Source: an uncultured Burkholderiales bacterium
GTDB lineage: Bacteria > Pseudomonadota > Gammaproteobacteria > Burkholderiales > Burkholderiaceae_C
Assembly: GCA_903856995.1 (NCBI GenBank)
Contig: CAIODK010000165.1
Span: 1 to 35,733, forward strand
Length of the DNA stretch: 35,733 nucleotides
Direction of reading: 5' to 3'
The notes under the pieces were generated by a model. It was not told the DNA's origin. It did no database searches and worked only from the letters and a program-made list of their open reading frames with translations. Numbering within the stretch: position 1 is the first letter of the stretch; every line of letters starts with the position of its first letter. The position numbers and the translations under genes were made by a program. Below, in pieces: positions 14,257-24,399 of the stretch.

Positions 14257-15222
14257 TTAATCAGGTTGAATATTGGCTTCGCGCACCAACTTGGCGTAGC
14301 GCTGGCGTTCTGTACGAATCAGTTGTGTGAACATGTCTGCGCTGCCGGGAACCACTTCACCGCCTACAGCGTTCATGCGTTCACGAACCTCTTTGGTTTG
14401 CAAGGCTTTTTGCACTTCATCGTGCAGCTTGCTCACAATCGGTTTTGGCGTGGCCGCGGGCGCCACCAAACCATACCAAACGGAGGCTTCAAACCCGACA
14501 AAACCAGATTCGGCAATGGTGGGAACATCCGGAAAGATAGCGCTGCGATTGGGGCTGAGCACCGCCAACACTTTGAGCTTGCCGCTCTTGACGTGTGGCA
14601 ATACTTCCAACGCATTCACGGCCACCAAAGGTAGCTGACCACCGATCACATCGGTGATCGCAGGGGTACCGCCTCGGTAAGGAATGTGCTGCAAATCAAT
14701 ACCTGCGGCACGAGCGAATAGCTCAATCGCCATATGTGGGGTAGAACCGTTGCCTGGCGTTCCAAAGGCAATGCTGTTGGGCTTGCCTTTGGCTGCCTCA
14801 ATCAGCTGTTTGATGTTGGTGTACGGCGCATTGGGATTGGCCGCAATCACCACAGGTACGCGACCGATGAGCGATACCGCCACCAAATCACGCTCTGCAT
14901 CAAACGGCGCGGGCTGGTAGAGCGACATGTTGGCAGCCAATGCATTGGCAGCCATCATTAAGGTGTAGCCATCGGGCTCCGCCGTGATGACTGACTTGAC
15001 CGCAATGTTGGTCCCGGCACCCGGTTTGTTTTCAACCACCACGGGCTGCCCCATGCTGATAGAGATGCTTTGACCAATGGTGCGGGCCACCACGTCCACA
15101 GCACCGCCTGCTGCATAGCCGACCACGACCTTGATCGGCTTGGCCGGATAGGTCTGCGCCATGGCGTGGCTTGCTATCAAACACATGGACAGAGCGGAGA
15201 CGAAACGCATCAAATTCTTCAT
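14257..15222 (-). CDS. Bug/TctC family tripartite tricarboxylate transporter substrate-binding protein
   Basis: Start set at MKNLMRFVSALSMCLIASHAMAQTYPAKPIKVVVGYAAGGAVDVVAR; signal peptide; typical GTPGNGSTPHMAIELF and VPTIAESGFVGFEASVWYGLVAPAATP. Confidence 0.94.
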   Translation of the reverse strand: MKNLMRFVSALSMCLIASHAMAQTYPAKPIKVVVGYAAGGAVDVVARTIGQSISISMGQPVVVENKPGAGTNIAVKSVITAEPDGYTLMMAANALAANMSLYQPAPFDAERDLVAVSLIGRVPVVIAANPNAPYTNIKQLIEAAKGKPNSIAFGTPGNGSTPHMAIELFARAAGIDLQHIPYRGGTPAITDVIGGQLPLVAVNALEVLPHVKSGKLKVLAVLSPNRSAIFPDVPTIAESGFVGFEASVWYGLVAPAATPKPIVSKLHDEVQKALQTKEVRERMNAVGGEVVPGSADMFTQLIRTERQRYAKLVREANIQPD

Positions 15223-15331
15223 CGTGGGTTCCTTTGAGACATAAATCGACTTGTGCCGTGCCGCGCAAACCTGCTGTGCAAACGCTAGCAAGTAAGGCAT
15301 GCCTGCTTCACGGCCTTTGGGAATGGCGACG

Positions 15332-16015
15332 TTAGTCGATGTATTTCAAGCCTGCTGCGGCCAGAGGCTCACGCATCTTGTACATGTCGAGGCCTAATAC
15401 ACCGGAGGCTAATTTGGCACGTTTCTCACCTTCAAAGCTCTCACGCTTTTGAGCGGCTTCCCACGTTTGTGCAGCACGTGCAGCAGGCACGCACACCACA
15501 CCGTCATCGTCAGCGACGATGACATCACCGGGATGAACCAACATGCCTGCACACACCACGGGAATATTGACAGATCCGATCGTGGCCTTGATGGTGCCTT
15601 TGCTACTGATAGCTTTGCTCCACACGGGGAAGTTCATGCGGTGCAACTCTTTCACATCACGCACACCGGCGTCGATGATCAAAGCGCGTGCGCCACGGGC
15701 TTGGAACGAGGTGGCCAACAAATCACCAAAGTAACCATCGGTGCAATCGGCCGTGATCGCAGCCACCACGATGTCACCGGGCTGAATTTGTTCAGCGGCC
15801 ACATGCATCATCCAGTTGTCGCCGGGGTGCAAAAGCACGGTCACCGCGGTGCCCGAGACTTGCGCACCTGGGTAGATAGGACGCATATAAGGCTTCATCA
15901 AACCCACGCGACCCATCGCCTCATGAACCGTGGCAGAGCCCAAAGCGGCCAAGCCGTCAGCAGCTGCGCGATCAGCGCGGGTGATGTTGCGGTAAACAAC
16001 GCCGAGTTCGTACAT
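15332..16015 (-). CDS. pmdF: 4-carboxy-4-hydroxy-2-oxoadipate aldolase / oxaloacetate decarboxylase (LigK/RraA-like)
   Basis: 227 aa; [94 protein letters not shown]. Confidence 0.95.
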
Positions 16016-16057
16016 AAGAAATCTCCAAAAATTAAGGTGGCTTAAGCGGCTCGCAAA

Positions 16058-17092
16058 TCAACGACCTTGCGACTTGAGCTTGGTATCCAAACGTGAGAAC
16101 ACGCGACGTGCGTTGCCCTCGTAGATCTGATGACGCTCATCTGCATTGAGGTTGAGCGTACCTTCGATGTAACGCTTGGTGTCATCGAAGTAGTGTCCCG
16201 TTTCTGGGTCAATGCCGCGCACGGCGCCAATCATCTCGGACGCAAACATGATGTTCTTGACGGGGATCACTTTGGTCAACAAGTCGATGCCAGGTTGGTG
16301 GTACACGCAGGTGTCGAAATAGATGTTGTTCATCAAGTGCTCGTTGAGCAACGGCTTTTTGAGCTCTTGCGCCAAACCACGGAAACGGCCCCAGTGGTAA
16401 GGCACAGCGCCACCGCCATGAGGAATCAAAAACTTCAAGGTGGGGAAATCTTTGAACAAGTCAGAGGTCAAGCACTGCATGAAGGCCGTGGTGTCTGCGT
16501 TCAAGTAATGCGCACCCGTGGTGTGGAAGCAGCCATTGCAGCTGGTCGACACATGAATCATGGCGGGGATGTCGTACTCGACCATCTTTTCGTAAATGGG
16601 GTACCAAGACTTGTCGCTCAATGGGGGTGATGTCCAGTGGCCGCCCGATGGATCGGGGTTGAGGTTGATGCCGACGTTGCCGTATTGCTCCACACACTTG
16701 ACCAACTCTGGAATGCAAGTGGCAGGGTCCACACCGGGCGACTGGGGCAACATAGCTGCTGGCACGAAGTTGTTGGGGAACAACTCAGCCACGCGGAAGC
16801 ACAGCTCGTTACAGATGGCCGCCCAAGTGGATGACACTTGGAAATCGCCAATGTGATGTGCCATGAAGCTCGCGCGTGGGCTGAAGATGGTGATGTCAGA
16901 GCCGCGCTCTTTCATCTTGGCGAGTTGGTTGGTCTCGATGGTTTCGCGCAATTCGTCGTCGCTGATTTTCAGCTCGGACACTTTGGGCATAGACGCGGGG
17001 TCTTTGATGCCTGCAATTTGGCGATTGCGCCATTCTTCTAAGGCCTTAGGTGCCGTGGTGTAGTGACCGTGTACGTCGATGATGAGAGACAT
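16058..17092 (-). CDS. pmdE: 4-oxalomesaconate hydratase (LigJ-type amidohydrolase)
   Basis: 344 aa; IIDVHGHYTTAPKALEEWRNRQIAGIKDP, GGHWTSPPLSDKSWYPIYEKMVEYDIPAMIHVSTSCN, FLIPHGGGAVPYHWGRFRG. Confidence 0.94.
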   Translation of the reverse strand: MSLIIDVHGHYTTAPKALEEWRNRQIAGIKDPASMPKVSELKISDDELRETIETNQLAKMKERGSDITIFSPRASFMAHHIGDFQVSSTWAAICNELCFRVAELFPNNFVPAAMLPQSPGVDPATCIPELVKCVEQYGNVGINLNPDPSGGHWTSPPLSDKSWYPIYEKMVEYDIPAMIHVSTSCNGCFHTTGAHYLNADTTAFMQCLTSDLFKDFPTLKFLIPHGGGAVPYHWGRFRGLAQELKKPLLNEHLMNNIYFDTCVYHQPGIDLLTKVIPVKNIMFASEMIGAVRGIDPETGHYFDDTKRYIEGTLNLNADERHQIYEGNARRVFSRLDTKLKSQGR

Positions 17093-18845: not shown

Positions 18846-19739
18846 TTACCAGCTGTCGTCGCCGCCACCTGAATCAGCACTGTCCCAATCGCTGCCAGAG
18901 CCGGCATCGAATGCGCCTAAGTCGGGTTGCGCAGGGGCGTCAAATGGCACGTAGCCCCCATTGCCTGCTGCGGGTGCTGCACTGGGTGCCGATGCATTGT
19001 GATGGTCACCCTCAAACGCTTTAGACAAGGCATAGCCCGCCGCCACACCTGCCAAACCACCGACGACAGCACCCGTCATGGTCGAGCCACCGCTATTCGG
19101 CTGGGCGTAACCCTGCTGCGGGGCAGCTGCATAGCCTGGCGCATTGGGGGTGAACTGTGCGCCAAAGCCACGCGGCGCTAATGGGGCGCCCGCGGGGGCA
19201 GGTACAGGTGCGTAGTTTGTGTTGTTGGCATTGGCGACCGCCGAGCGGCGGAACCACAAACCGAGCACAACCAAGCCGGCAATAGCCAGCCACACGTAGC
19301 TGAGTGGGAACCCGCTGCTTGCTGGCGCTACAGGTACCGCTTGGGTGGCAGCGTGCGTACCTGGCGCGACAGAAGGCGACATCACCACGGAAGAGGATGG
19401 GGATGCCAAATCGCTCACTTTGGTGAACACGGCGTTGAACTTCTCGGGACTGGTCGCGAACTTCAGCGATGGCTCAATGTCCTTGGCTTTTTGCAGCTCG
19501 GTTTGCGCTTCTTTGTAGCGCTGCTCGTGGGCCAGCACTTGGCCAAGCTCGTAATGCGCTTTGGCGCTTTGTGGTTTGTCTTGAAGAACTTCGCGCAGCA
19601 TGGCTTCTGCCTGCGTGTAATGACCGGCGCTGACGGCGCCTTCAATATCTTTGGGCGTAGGCAAGGCCAATGCCAGCGTGGCACTCACAATCAGCACGGT
19701 AGCCGCTAAAGATTTCAGCAATCGGGTCAACATAGTCAT
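18846..19739 (-). CDS. Tetratricopeptide repeat protein with signal peptide/TM and Gly/Asp/Ser-rich C-terminus
   Basis: 297 aa; QAEAMLREVLQDKPQSAKAHYELGQVLAHEQRYKEAQTELQKAKDIEPSLKF (TPR), TM SYVWLAIAGLVVLGLWF, tail DAGSGSDWDSADSGGGDDSW. Confidence 0.82.
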   Translation of the reverse strand: MTMLTRLLKSLAATVLIVSATLALALPTPKDIEGAVSAGHYTQAEAMLREVLQDKPQSAKAHYELGQVLAHEQRYKEAQTELQKAKDIEPSLKFATSPEKFNAVFTKVSDLASPSSSVVMSPSVAPGTHAATQAVPVAPASSGFPLSYVWLAIAGLVVLGLWFRRSAVANANNTNYAPVPAPAGAPLAPRGFGAQFTPNAPGYAAAPQQGYAQPNSGGSTMTGAVVGGLAGVAAGYALSKAFEGDHHNASAPSAAPAAGNGGYVPFDAPAQPDLGAFDAGSGSDWDSADSGGGDDSW

Positions 19740-19884: not shown

Positions 19885-19909
19885 GAAAAAGGCTCCTTGC
19901 GGAACCTTT
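19885..19909 (-). terminator. Rho-independent terminator (minus strand)
   Basis: Minus strand AAAGGTTCC-GCAA-GGAGCCTTT hairpin (one G-U pair, GNRA-type loop) followed by a T tract, downstream of the partial tRNA-Val. Confidence 0.7.
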
Positions 19910-19937: not shown

Positions 19938-19991
19938 TGGCAAAAATGGTGGGCGATGCACGTTTCGAACTTGCGACCCCCACAGTGTGAA
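19938..19991 (-). repeat. Direct repeat copy 1: 3' half of tRNA-Val(CAC) plus flank; putative att site
   Basis: 54 bp identical to 23225-23278 except one base (c at 19961 vs a at 23248); similarity stops in the anticodon loop. Confidence 0.9.
19947..19991 (-). pseudogene. tRNA-Val 3' fragment (T-arm, acceptor 3' strand and CCA)
   Basis: Reverse complement TTCACACTGTGGGGGTCGCAAGTTCGAAACGTGCATCGCCCACCA; lacks 5' acceptor strand and D-arm; one T-stem mismatch. Confidence 0.85.
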
Positions 19992-20130
19992 GACTATGGC
20001 AGTTTGCCAATTTATTAAATTAAATCAACGACTTATCTAATTATAAATGTCCAAAAGTAGTATAGTTTTAGTATAGCTTTTCACTTATATAGTTATTACT
20101 TTCAAACCATACTTAGAACTTGTAGGACAC

Positions 20131-20155
20131 CAAGCGTAAAGACTCTTTACGCTTG
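20131..20155. terminator. Strong hairpin downstream of gntR, possible terminator
   Basis: CAAGCGTAAAG-ACT-CTTTACGCTTG perfect 11-bp stem; only a weak T tract follows. Confidence 0.4.
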
Positions 20156-20186
20156 TAAGTTTTGGGTTTGCACTCATGCAATAAAG

Positions 20187-20837
20187 CTACCGATCTTTCA
20201 CAACTCTACGGATCGTGTTTGCGAAGTGATCGTTAACAGCCCTCTTCATTTTTTTCACATCACGGCTAGCTAAGGCTTGGGCAATTTCTTCATGGTCCTC
20301 TAAAGCACCACGCCAATTTTCAGGTGTGTTGTTGCCACTGTATCTGAGGCTACGCATGCGTTTGCTAAGGGTGCTATGAAGCATCGTTAGTGATTCGTTA
20401 TCAGCCATCTCCACCAAAGTGTCATGAATTTTTTGATTTAAATCGAAATATTCTGGCCGTTTACCTTTTGCGTACAACACTTTCATTTTTTCGTTCATGG
20501 CCAGCACTTGGTCAATTCGATGTTGATCTGTCTTACATGCCTTTTGGGCTGCAAAACTTTCTAGCAGCCCCATTACCTCCAACATGTCTGCAGCATCTTT
20601 AGAACTGAAATTTTTTACTACAGCGCCACGCAAAGGCAACAACTCCACCAAACCCTCAGACGCTAACACCTTCAAAGCCTCACGAATTGGTGTTCTAGAA
20701 ACGCCCAAATCTCTGCTTATCTCTAACTCAGGCACTCTTTCCCCCGGCTTAATTTGCGATTCAACAATTAAGTTGCGCAAACGAGATGTCACCTCTAAAT
20801 GGAGCGATGTTCTTGCAATTGGATCTTTCACGGACAT
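20187..20837 (-). CDS. GntR family transcriptional regulator (FadR/FCD subfamily)
   Basis: Start set at MSVKDPIARTSLHLEVTSRLRNLIVESQIKPGERVPELEISRDLGVSRTPIREALKVLASEGLVELLPLRGAVV; helical FCD domain follows. Confidence 0.94.
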   Translation of the reverse strand: MSVKDPIARTSLHLEVTSRLRNLIVESQIKPGERVPELEISRDLGVSRTPIREALKVLASEGLVELLPLRGAVVKNFSSKDAADMLEVMGLLESFAAQKACKTDQHRIDQVLAMNEKMKVLYAKGKRPEYFDLNQKIHDTLVEMADNESLTMLHSTLSKRMRSLRYSGNNTPENWRGALEDHEEIAQALASRDVKKMKRAVNDHFANTIRRVVKDR

Positions 20838-20850
20838 AGATATTCGAGGG

Positions 20851-20907
20851 TAATTACGGATGCCGATGATTGTATGAGATTCATTACACTGTAATCCGTA
20901 ATTACAG
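20851..20907. promoter_or_regulatory. Nested inverted-repeat operator region between gntR and pdxA-like gene
   Basis: TAATTACGGAT (20851-20861) / ATCCGTAATTA (20894-20904); ATTACA-C-TGTAAT (20883-20895); CTGTAAT-N5-ATTACAG (20889-20907). Confidence 0.65.
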
Positions 20908-20944
20908 ATTACACATAAGATCAATTTTGTTTTGAAAGAACCTA

Positions 20945-21901
20945 ATGACGCTTCCTACCATTGCTCTGTTCACTGGCGATCCTGCAGGCATAGGTCCTGA
21001 ACTGGTTCAAAAACTGCTGCAAGACCCAGTTAGTCATCAAGCAAAAAAAATCATTTTGATAGGCCAAAAAGGCTGCATATCGCCGAGTTCAATTTCAACT
21101 TGGCACGACTGGTCAGGTCACATGGCTCCTTCATTCAAAGCCGCCTCTGCAGACGCTCATAACGGGGCTTACATGATTGAGGCTTTGGCACAAGGTGTTG
21201 CATTGGTTAGAGATGGTCAAGCGGATGCCTTTTGTTTTGCTCCCCTTAATAAAAGCGCCCTTCGCCTTGGCGGTATGCACCAAGAAGACGAACTTCGCTG
21301 GTTTGAAGAATTTTTGAACTACAAAGGCGTATGCGGCGAGCTTAATGTCTTAGAGAATCTTTGGACCTCACGCGTCACATCTCATGTACCCTTGAAAGAA
21401 GTCAGTAATCTGCTGTCGAGTCAAAAAGTATTTGAATCGATATGGATGATTTCAAATGCACTCAAGGCAGCGGGAAAACAAAAACCACGCATAGCAATTT
21501 GCGGGCTTAATCCACACAATGGCGACAACGGTAACTATGGCGATGAAGAAATCAAAATCATTGCACCAGGGGTAGAGATGGCTCAGAGAGAAGACATCAA
21601 TGCAGACGGTCCCTTTCCTGCAGATACTGCATTCGTCCGCGCCATTCGAAAAGACGATGGGTATGACGGCGTAGTCACCATGTACCACGACCAAGGACAA
21701 ATCGCAATGAAACTAATGGGTTTTGAAAAAGGGGTCACTGTGCATGGCGGGCTCCCTATCCCCATCACTACTCCGGCGCATGGAACCGCATACGACATCG
21801 TTGGAAAAAACTTAGCTAATCCCCAAGCCATGCTGAATGCATTCGAATTGGCTTGCCGAATGGGACAACACCATCGTAAACAAAATAAATCAATGACTTA
21901 A
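20945..21901 (+). CDS. PdxA family NAD-dependent dehydrogenase/decarboxylase (4-hydroxythreonine-4-phosphate dehydrogenase-like)
   Basis: 318 aa; ALFTGDPAGIGPELV, VTSHVPLKEVSNLL, AICGLNPHNGDNGNYGDEE, VTMYHDQGQIAMKLMGFEKGVTVHGGLPIPITTPAHGTAYDIVGKNLA. GntR-linked context suggests a catabolic PdxA2-type, not PLP synthesis. Confidence 0.9.
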   Translation: MTLPTIALFTGDPAGIGPELVQKLLQDPVSHQAKKIILIGQKGCISPSSISTWHDWSGHMAPSFKAASADAHNGAYMIEALAQGVALVRDGQADAFCFAPLNKSALRLGGMHQEDELRWFEEFLNYKGVCGELNVLENLWTSRVTSHVPLKEVSNLLSSQKVFESIWMISNALKAAGKQKPRIAICGLNPHNGDNGNYGDEEIKIIAPGVEMAQREDINADGPFPADTAFVRAIRKDDGYDGVVTMYHDQGQIAMKLMGFEKGVTVHGGLPIPITTPAHGTAYDIVGKNLANPQAMLNAFELACRMGQHHRKQNKSMT

Positions 21902-21928
21902 ACCTTGATTACCTAACTAGGAGACGAA

Positions 21929-22888
21929 ATGAATAAACACATTACCGTTTTGGTGTCCGCTCTCTTATTTGCCCTCAGCACTCAAGCACAAAACTCTTAC
22001 CCAAATAAACCCGTCAAAATAATGGTGGGCGCAGGCGCTGGCGGCGGTACTGACATCATTGCGCGCATGCTGGCAGAGAAAATGAGTGATTCGCTAAAAG
22101 GCACCTTCATTGTTGAAAACAAACCTGGCGCCGCAAACACCATCGCGGCCGAACTCACCGCTAAGGCTGTGCCAGATGGACACACTCTCTTAGTTGCTAC
22201 CAATACAGGGCAAGCCATCGCGCCACATTTGATCAAGTTGTCCTACGATCCCATGAAAGATTTAACACCCCTTGGATTGGTAGTCACCGTTCCTAACGTA
22301 TTGGTGGTTGGCTCCAACGTCCCTGCCAACAACATCAAAGAGTTGGTCGCACTAATGAAAGCAAAGCCTGAGGAGTTTAAATATGCTTCATCAGGCGTTG
22401 GCAGCACGCAGCACATTGCAGGCGAAGGATTTGACTTGGCAGCCGGCGTCAAGAGTGTGCACATACCCTACAAAGGAAGTGCCCAGGCCCACTTAGACAT
22501 CATTGCAGGCAATGTCCAGATCATGTTTGACACAACATCCTCTGCCATGGGCCAAATCAAAGCAGGTAAATTCAAACCCTTGGCTGTGACCACTGCACAA
22601 CGCACCTCTGAACTACCCAACGTTCCGACCTTGGCTGAAGCTGGTGTACCTGGTTTTGAGATGAGCACCTGGTATGGCCTATTCGTGACAACAGGTACCC
22701 CCCCTGATGTGGTGGTAAAGCTTCAAACTGAATTAGCACGAATCATCAAATTACCCGATGTACAAATCAAACTCAAAGGACTTGGCGGCGAATCAGGCAA
22801 CCTTAGTCCTGAAGAATTTACAAAACTAAATCGTCAGGAGTTTGAGCGATTTGGCAAGTTGATCAAACTGGCCAACATCAAAATGTGA
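21929..22888 (+). CDS. Bug/TctC family tripartite tricarboxylate transporter substrate-binding protein
   Basis: 319 aa with signal peptide; YPNKPVKIMVGAGAGGGTDIIARMLAEKM, VPTLAEAGVPGFEMSTWYGLFVTTGTP. Confidence 0.94.
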   Translation: MNKHITVLVSALLFALSTQAQNSYPNKPVKIMVGAGAGGGTDIIARMLAEKMSDSLKGTFIVENKPGAANTIAAELTAKAVPDGHTLLVATNTGQAIAPHLIKLSYDPMKDLTPLGLVVTVPNVLVVGSNVPANNIKELVALMKAKPEEFKYASSGVGSTQHIAGEGFDLAAGVKSVHIPYKGSAQAHLDIIAGNVQIMFDTTSSAMGQIKAGKFKPLAVTTAQRTSELPNVPTLAEAGVPGFEMSTWYGLFVTTGTPPDVVVKLQTELARIIKLPDVQIKLKGLGGESGNLSPEEFTKLNRQEFERFGKLIKLANIKM

Positions 22889-23044
22889 CAAGCAATCGGT
22901 AAATGTTCACTAGAAAAATAGAACAGGCAATTTGCAATCAAGTTGTTGTAACCGGCTCCTGAAAGAAGCGCAATGCGAAGGAGCGATAGCAAATCAGACA
23001 GAACATGCTTAGAAATAAGAACTGCATTTTCAATGCGAGTACCT

Positions 23045-23063
23045 TGCTCACGTAGCGTGAGCA
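23045..23063. other. Perfect hairpin TGCTCACG-TAG-CGTGAGCA
   Basis: 8-bp stem with 3-nt loop in the noncoding end of the islet. Confidence 0.45.
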
Positions 23064-23138
23064 TATGAAGTTTTGTAACCCAATTCAATCCGGCTTATCG
23101 CGATGAATAAATCAACAAGTTTCAGTTTTGAAGAGACG

Positions 23139-23163
23139 AAAAAAATGCTTCCTAGGGAAGCAT
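23139..23163 (-). terminator. Rho-independent terminator for tRNA-Val (minus strand)
   Basis: Minus strand ATGCTTCC-CTA-GGAAGCAT followed by TTTTTT; ~70 nt downstream of the tRNA 3' end. Confidence 0.75.
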
Positions 23164-23224
23164 ATGTCGAACTCTTAAAAAGTAAATTCTGAAAACACCC
23201 TAAGTGATTGGTGGCGTTCAGATT

Positions 23225-23278
23225 TGGCAAAAATGGTGGGCGATGCAAGTTTCGAACTTGCGACCCCCACAGTGTGAA
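23225..23278 (-). repeat. Direct repeat copy 2, inside the intact tRNA-Val(CAC); putative att site
   Basis: See 19938-19991; 53/54 identical. Confidence 0.9.
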
Positions 23279-23308
23279 TGTGGTGCTCTACCCCTGAGCT
23301 AATCGCCC
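23234..23308 (-). tRNA. tRNA-Val (anticodon CAC), CCA encoded
   Basis: GGGCGAT TA GCTC AGGGGTA GAGC A CCACA TTCACAC TGTGG GGGTC GCAAG TTCGAAA CTTGC ATCGCCC A CCA: all four arms pair; anticodon CAC. Confidence 0.95.
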
Positions 23309-23344: not shown

Positions 23345-24058
23345 TTATGCCACAGAATTTTCTGCATTTCTCCAAACCGTATTTCCGCCGCTCGATTTAT
23401 CTAACTGCGTCAACACATCTTCGTGCTGCGTCAGTTCTTGTTCAGAGGCAGCGATGACGGGAAGCTGAAAGCTGCGGAGCTCCACATACTCGGTTGTGCG
23501 ATTTAGCTCGTCGCTACTCTCGACTTCCATCAACAGCGCGTCCTGCCCGCGAGTCATGTTGATGTACACGTCGGCCAACAGCTCAGCATCCAGCAAAGCG
23601 CCATGCAGCGTGCGACCTGAGTTGTCCACCTCCAAACGATCACACAAAGAGTCCAGTGAGTTGCGTTTGCCAGGGAACATTTCTTTGGCCATCACCAGCG
23701 TATCGGTGATGCTGTCAACAAACGTGGTGAACGGTTTGCGACCTTGCAGTTCGAGCTCTTTATTTAAAAAGCTGACGTCGAATGGGGCATTGTGGATGAT
23801 GACTTCAGCACCTTCGATGTACTCCAAAAACTGGTCCACCACTGCACCAAACTTGGGTTTGTCTTTCAAGAACTCGTTGGTGATGCCGTGCACGCGCAAG
23901 GCTTCTTCATGGCTGTCACGCTCAGGATTGAGGTAGAAATGCAGATTATTGCCAGTGAGCTTGCGGTGCAGCAGCTCCACACACCCAATCTCAATGACGC
24001 GGTCACCGCTGTCAGCCGAGAGACCTGTTGTTTCTGTGTCTAGAAAAATCTGGCGCAT
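23345..24058 (-). CDS. dnaQ: DNA polymerase III epsilon subunit
   Basis: Start set at MRQIFLDTETTGLSADSGDRVIEIGCVELLHRKLTGNNLHFYLNPER; ExoI DxE, HNAPFDVSFLNKEL, LHGALLDAELLADVYINMT. Confidence 0.96.
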   Translation of the reverse strand: MRQIFLDTETTGLSADSGDRVIEIGCVELLHRKLTGNNLHFYLNPERDSHEEALRVHGITNEFLKDKPKFGAVVDQFLEYIEGAEVIIHNAPFDVSFLNKELELQGRKPFTTFVDSITDTLVMAKEMFPGKRNSLDSLCDRLEVDNSGRTLHGALLDAELLADVYINMTRGQDALLMEVESSDELNRTTEYVELRSFQLPVIAASEQELTQHEDVLTQLDKSSGGNTVWRNAENSVA

Positions 24059-24060
24059 GG

Positions 24061-24399
24061 TCAGTGGTTTTCTTTTGCGTGGTTGATGGTGTACTTTGGA
24101 ATTTCCACCACCAAGTTTTGCTGAGCCACGATGGCTTGGCAACTCAAACGCGAGTTGGGTTCTAAGCCCCAAGCACGGTCGAGCAAGTCGTCTTCGTTTT
24201 CGTCAGCTTCGTTGAGCGACTTCAAACCCTCGCGCACGATGACGTGGCAGGTGGTGCAAGCGCAGCTCATGTCGCAAGCGTGCTCAATGTTGATGTGGTT
24301 TTCTAGCAGCACTTCGCAAATGGTGCTACCCGCGGTGGCTTGAAGCTCAGCACCATTTGGGCAGAGTTCGGCATGGGGCAAGATTTTGATAACAGGCAT
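24061..24399 (-). CDS. fdx: ISC-type [2Fe-2S] ferredoxin
   Basis: 112 aa; EHACDMSCACTTCHVIVREGLKSLNEADENEDDLLDRAWGLEPNSRLSCQAIV; adjacent to hscA. Confidence 0.96.
   Translation of the reverse strand: MPVIKILPHAELCPNGAELQATAGSTICEVLLENHINIEHACDMSCACTTCHVIVREGLKSLNEADENEDDLLDRAWGLEPNSRLSCQAIVAQQNLVVEIPKYTINHAKENH

Follow-up and report, generated by a model that had tools for sequence, protein, structure and literature searches.

The cis-mobilizable elements (CIMEs) of Streptococcus retain their attachment (att) sites, have no genes for integration or transfer, carry cargo within 1.2–13 kb and accrete in tandem with integrase-bearing elements at the 3′ end of one gene; tRNA-Lys sites are known in S. 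agalactiae, and CIMEs are defined as deletion products of integrative and conjugative (ICEs) or integrative and mobilizable elements (IMEs) (PMC7563491, PMC5704250). In Dehalococcoides, islands lie in tandem behind a single RNA gene, ssrA, with direct repeats of its 3′ end; they carry catabolic cargo, and 15 of them have no integration module (PMC3146451). Islander-class islands show a regenerated tRNA and a displaced fragment, with the anticodon loop as a common crossover sub-site, and require an integrase gene found by PF00589 (PMC4383910). Freshwater Methylophilaceae have the additive flexible genomic island fGI-2 (330 bp–42 kb), preceded by a varying number of tRNA-Lys 3′-end repeats, and tycheposons that encode their own tyrosine recombinase (PMC10872708). 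Here, we describe a 3.2-kb islet at a tRNA-Val(CAC) gene in a 35,733-nucleotide contig of an uncultured Burkholderiales bacterium (CAIODK010000165.1, assembly GCA_903856995.1; this whole stretch is called the window). CIMEs are the closest kind of element, and the integrase-less ssrA islands the closest layout. We propose, with a probability of about 0.72, that the islet is a non-autonomous integrative cassette composed of cargo, two conserved ends and a tRNA-Val att site, which would be served by a helper integrase from related islands. Its site-specific insertion and its membership in a cassette family are well supported; the helper is a candidate suggested by the comparisons below.

The source assembly is a metagenome-assembled genome of 373 contigs, with a completeness of 97.5% and a contamination of 6.6%; named close matches such as Limnohabitans sp. 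Jir61 place it in Limnohabitans or very near. Labels beginning with G denote the genomes compared, those with L or C their loci and contigs. The islet is bracketed by a direct repeat identical at 53 of 54 positions, compared with a best match of 30/54 across 60 shuffles of the region. ARAGORN detects a single tRNA-Val(CAC), and the repeat, read in tRNA orientation, extends from the anticodon loop (TTCACAC) to 9 bp past the CCA. Its sole mismatch (19961) is a T-stem position of the displaced copy, and that copy can drift freely. GC content is 0.38–0.51 between the repeats versus ~0.51–0.63 outside, and GC at third codon positions (GC3) is 0.42–0.50 in the three cargo genes versus 0.62–0.72 in 13 flanking genes. 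No recombinase was found between the repeats, either in the list of open reading frames (ORFs) or by Pfam. With an intact tRNA at one end and a displaced 3′ fragment at the other, the islet has the layout of a tRNA-integrated island, and it lacks the integrase gene of its own that Islander requires. These results bear out an earlier reading of the window made without database searches (the sequence-only reading), which had described the 53/54 repeat of the tRNA 3′ half running from just past the CCA and stopping in the anticodon loop, the intact tRNA-Val, an AT-richer interior, the lack of a recombinase ORF and, as Pfam supports, a gntR-pdxA-tctC block. The same tRNA-Val gene adjoins dnaQ across the genus. 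Coordinates are collected in Table 1.

Table 1. Features of the islet and its flanks in the window
Feature	Position	Strand	Evidence
Intact tRNA-Val(CAC), integration target, attL side	23234..23308	-	ARAGORN; syntenic with dnaQ
att repeat, tRNA-side copy; core TTCACAC in anticodon loop	23225..23278	-	repeat alignment
att repeat, displaced tRNA 3′ half (53/54)	19938..19991	-	repeat alignment; shuffle control
Conserved tRNA-side end (endR), common only to integrase-less cassettes	23044..23233	-	alignment A1, model R1
Palindrome ATGCTTCCCTAGGAAGCAT then T-run, putative element-borne terminator for tRNA	23145..23163	-	inferred
Palindrome CATATGCTCACGCTACGTGAG, putative promoter-like sequence ahead	23047..23067	-	alignment
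Conserved distal end (endL), common to integrase-bearing islands too	19992..20157	-	alignment A2, model R2
Two direct arm-like repeats CTATACTAAAACTATACTACTTT, 85 bp before core	20054..20076	-	distal-end comparison
25-bp palindrome CAAGCGTAAAGAGTCTTTACGCTTG in distal end	20131..20155	.	alignment A2
Cargo: GntR/FCD regulator	20187..20837	-	Pfam
Cargo: PdxA-family dehydrogenase	20945..21901	+	Pfam; under NCBIfam PdxA cut-off
Cargo: TctC-type solute-binding protein	21929..22888	+	Pfam
Ancestral terminator, directly 3′ of tRNA-Val in empty-site relatives	19885..19909	.	comparison
Flank: TPR gene, next after tRNA-Val in empty sites	18846..19739	-	comparison
Flank: dnaQ (exonuclease)	23345..24061	-	Pfam; synteny

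The sequence-only reading had predicted that at an empty site the terminator and then the TPR gene should come straight after a single tRNA-Val. Exactly this arrangement was found in at least five sister species (G101, G105, G033, G009 and G075), and in a script-joined alignment the joined flanks of the window are 78–82% identical to these five sites apart from indels. In G088, which belongs to a different branch, an insert of 2,278 bp separates tRNA-Val from a flank unrelated to that of the window; it is precisely absent from G076, whose flanks are 97% identical, and also from G027 and G019. These two independent comparisons of empty and occupied sites indicate that insertion was precise and occurred more than once. 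In the G076 assembly itself (L231 end, L212), the junction is present in two states, empty (C127) and occupied (C111), with 85 bases in common, which fits a population with both states or, possibly, an assembly effect.

Both ends of the islet recur at other loci. We searched genus and family with a model of the tRNA-side end (R1, from alignment A1) and one of the distal end (R2, from alignment A2), using stricter filters by which weak matches may be lost; arrays are under-counted, as the genomes are mostly drafts whose contigs are broken. The tRNA-side end was matched in 16 of 84 genus genomes and the distal end in 20, nearly always at a tRNA-Val or a tRNA-Val half, and neither was detected outside the genus in ~395 sampled family genomes. 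Together they frame unrelated cargo: a hydrolase, LysR-RraA-TctC, toxin-antitoxin or an ABC transporter. The first clue to such a family came from L043 (G094), which has the same site, the same kinds of ends and an alpha/beta hydrolase as cargo. Apart from the window and G094, integrase-less cassettes with both ends are present in G074 (LysR-RraA-TctC; distal end partly deleted), G088 (ParE-like toxin and others), G106 (L205:3746-7082; two ParB-like proteins and a large serine recombinase, possibly a nested element), G029 (ABC transporter; distal end at the contig edge) and, as one of its elements, G093. G073 and the second element of G061 contain LysR-RraA-TctC cargo and no recognisable distal repeat. 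The distal end is also common to the integrase islands of G006 and G062 and to the nitrate-respiration (nar) island of G061, in which the integrase is truncated, whereas the tRNA-side end is private to integrase-less cassettes. Within the latter end, the palindrome ATGCTTCCCTAGGAAGCAT with its T-run may serve as a terminator replacing the displaced one, and TTGAAT-17-TATGCT ahead of the second palindrome looks promoter-like. The promoter-like sequence with the palindrome ATGCTCACG..CGTGAGCAT is not confined to the tRNA-side end: it is also present elsewhere, at L114:6624-6704, L121:2516-2602 and L248:7143-7212, in G034 near an integrase fragment.

These data leave little room for a tandem duplication of the tRNA with subsequent erosion of one copy, unrelated to mobile DNA. 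Only the repeat itself speaks for this origin; that it stops in the anticodon loop, the empty sites, the conserved ends and the variable cargo all speak against it. A single duplication event is refuted by the empty sites and the shared ends, and we regard the whole explanation as practically negligible.

Members of the family also stack. In G061, the tRNA is followed by the 30.9-kb nar island, a distal end, an att copy and then the second, integrase-less cassette, and junctions of distal end, att and new element were likewise found in G093, G029, G018 and G087. Tandem accretion as described for CIMEs is thus seen in the family (in G061 next to a truncated integrase), while the copy in the window is single. 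A segment of the toxin-antitoxin cassette is 94–97% identical at the DNA level over 0.6–1.26 kb between G086, G087, G088 and G093. Since the adjoining dnaQ is only 66–77% identical (G087, G088, G093), this integrase-less cassette must have crossed species recently. Its distal part is the same in all four genomes, and its tRNA-side parts differ between G086/G087 and G088/G093.

The chimeric look of these cassettes, together with ends conserved over ~170–190 bp, could point to DNA uptake and homologous recombination, with the conserved ends, the tRNA and the flanks as regions of exchange and no integrase involved. Yet the flanking dnaQ genes are too diverged for easy crossovers, gain at an empty site needs no homology of the ends, and in G006 the crossover is confined to the 7–9 bp core, where the 3′ halves differ. 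We therefore consider homologous exchange improbable. Somewhat less improbable, though still unlikely, is that one integrase island decayed in place, its integrase being deleted and the remainder fixed with no onward mobility. Such decay happens, as the nar island of G061 keeps only 107 amino acids of its integrase; the genome of the window has no close integrase copy, and the mutation in the displaced tRNA copy suggests that the islet is not brand new. However, its tRNA-side end differs from that of the integrase islands and is common to a dozen integrase-less cassettes with varied cargo, which independent decay would not yield, and a sister cassette without integrase has moved recently. The private tRNA-side end combined with the shared distal end argues for a non-autonomous lineage more than for repeated decay.

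The sequence-only reading had left open whether the islet is a decayed island or a cassette mobilised in trans. We favour the latter and consider the former less likely, because unrelated cargo lies between the same ends in numerous species and one cassette clearly passed from species to species. The non-autonomous cassette would have entered tRNA-Val(CAC) by a single crossover at the core TTCACAC of its anticodon loop, the incoming DNA supplying a replacement 3′ half that kept the tRNA whole and the original half being displaced 3.2 kb downstream. Recombination may have been catalysed by a ~450-amino-acid lambda-type integrase from the related islands, which have the distal end with its arm sites in common with the cassette; the enzyme would act in trans or by composite excision following tandem accretion. 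At the level of sequence, comparison establishes the site, the crossover region, the replaced tRNA half, the shared ends, the swapped cargo, the stacking and the transfer of a sister cassette between species. Because its own genome has no close copy of the integrase, the cassette in the window is probably stranded now. A more far-reaching idea, which we put forward tentatively and would not yet expect to hold, is that integrase-less tRNA cassettes form a self-standing lineage in Limnohabitans, marked by a tRNA-side end of their own that consists of a terminator and a promoter-like palindrome. These cassettes would be parasites of an integrase encoded by islands unrelated to them, exchange cargo, line up in arrays at tRNA-Val and pass from species to species, much like an integron with a tRNA half as att site.

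The candidate helper is encoded in full length beside the att site in G006 and G062; pieces of it remain in G061, G091, G026 and G034, and relatives with 33–40% identity occur in ~30 other genus genomes. The ~450-amino-acid protein gave no Pfam or NCBIfam match at E ≤ 1e-5 (PF00589 detected neither of the two members tested), and it matches a PHROG integrase family (E 1e-17). Residues R282, K312, R392, H393 and Y426 are invariant in an alignment of 16 sequences, and lambda integrase is the best PDB match (E 1.7e-7) of an AlphaFold model with a mean pLDDT of 78. In this model the N-terminus forms three strands and one helix, like the arm-binding domain of lambda Int. By PHROG match, invariant residues and predicted fold, the protein resembles a divergent lambda-type tyrosine integrase. 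As putative arm sites, 15 of 16 distal ends carry two direct repeats CTATACTACNNNTATACTACTTT (unit CTATACTAC) at a distance of 88–92 nt from where the core ends; those of the window fit the shared sequence with one mismatch. At the other end of the integrase islands, inverted arm copies are located at about +60 and +75 from the CCA (G061, G062, G082, G071, G086), and G006 has an inverted arm pair downstream of the split host tRNA half.

Several observations count against a cassette mobilised by this integrase. Inverted arm sites are missing from every tRNA-side end of this type, that of the window included, which makes its recognition by the island integrase the weakest part of the proposed mechanism; the palindrome ATGCTTCCCTAGGAAGCAT and its T-run lie near the position that the inverted arms occupy in the islands. 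The best match to the ~450-amino-acid integrase in the genome of the window is only 38% identical. Neither an excised circle nor excision was seen, the islet had no match in 50,697 phage records and the distal end none in plasmid records, and pattern scans of IMG/VR viral contigs for the tRNA-side palindrome and the arm repeat revealed no carrier.

The missing phage matches bear equally on the idea that the islet is a phage remnant or a satellite using a phage integrase. A 38-kb IMG/VR viral contig (L104:906-2068) does carry an exact 45-bp tRNA-Val half beside a 349-amino-acid integrase, and a phage probably uses the same tRNA-Val site. However, its att region contains neither conserved end, its integrase is barely similar to that of the islands, and no structural or packaging gene was present in the cassettes examined, which makes a phage origin very improbable.

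Two integrase islands deserve a separate description. In G006 (L119:16126-16500, L118:6456-6500), the host tRNA-Val (GCGTGGT type) has been interrupted in its anticodon loop. Its 3′ half is now found behind the distal end at a distance of ~30 kb, and in its place the island provides a complete foreign tRNA-Val (GGGTCGT type). In G062, contig C7 (L111:15259-17217) shows distal end, att core and integrase ordered as in the attP of an excised circle; it is separate from the tRNA-Val contig, on which the flank downstream of the tRNA begins like an empty site. No relaxase or conjugation gene was detected among ten ORFs scanned of the G006 and G062 islands. Larger islands, the nar island among them, also encode a small catalytic-domain tyrosine recombinase of 190 amino acids (L106:11003-11632, L118:16598-17170, L115:11514-11756). 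It is not favoured as helper, lying at least 1.3 kb from att with no visible link to the conserved ends; in G061, insertion sequence-like genes separate it from the att site.

Like CIMEs, the islet is small, carries cargo, appears by its sequence to keep attL and attR and has no integration or transfer genes, and its family stacks in tandem. It differs in that the tRNA-side end is private to integrase-less cassettes; with no conjugation gene among the ten island ORFs, an ICE or IME ancestry, as in the CIME definition, would be conjecture. Tandem order, repeats of an RNA gene's 3′ end, integrase-less members and catabolic cargo are shared with the ssrA islands of Dehalococcoides, in which tmRNA is the target and a serine recombinase (DsiB) acts, in contrast to the tRNA-Val anticodon loop and lambda-type tyrosine integrase here. 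The regenerated tRNA, displaced fragment and anticodon-loop crossover agree with Islander-class islands; because that approach requires PF00589, it would miss both the islet, which has no integrase, and its related islands, whose ~450-amino-acid integrase has no such match. Freshwater bacterioplankton with tRNA-bounded metabolic cargo are common to our case and to the Methylophilaceae, but the islet lacks the tyrosine recombinase that tycheposons encode, and the part of the source considered here reports no shared end sequences or arm sites (PMC10872708). What differs from known systems is that a conserved tRNA-side end, confined to integrase-less cassettes, is combined with a distal end that integrase islands possess too. 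Integrase-requiring island finders miss such cassettes, and surveys based on PF00589 could miss the ~450-amino-acid integrase family. Integrase-less forms outnumber integrase-bearing ones in this common freshwater genus. The cassettes bring genes for substrate uptake and catabolism, plausibly tuning niches, and the shared ends, fixed arm spacing and candidate helper make movement of integrase-less islands directly testable.

The cargo functions in the window are assigned at family level only. A match to its PdxA was found in 9 of 84 genus genomes, the nearest relative being 74% identical at the amino acid level, and the empty-site sister species have none; this sporadic distribution and the low GC3 indicate import. 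Neither syntenic relatives with the block lacking the repeat nor a vertical phylogeny of its genes, which the sequence-only reading had named as contrary outcomes, was encountered. In six relatives pdxA adjoins tctC, and in two of these gntR is also adjacent, so that an operon otherwise ordinary in this genus makes up the cargo, having been relocated to the tRNA site. Beyond the TPR gene, in the downstream flank at 14257-17092 of the window, no att repeats were noticed around a second cluster, tctC-RraA-amidohydrolase, which resembles in kind the RraA-TctC cargo of other cassettes.

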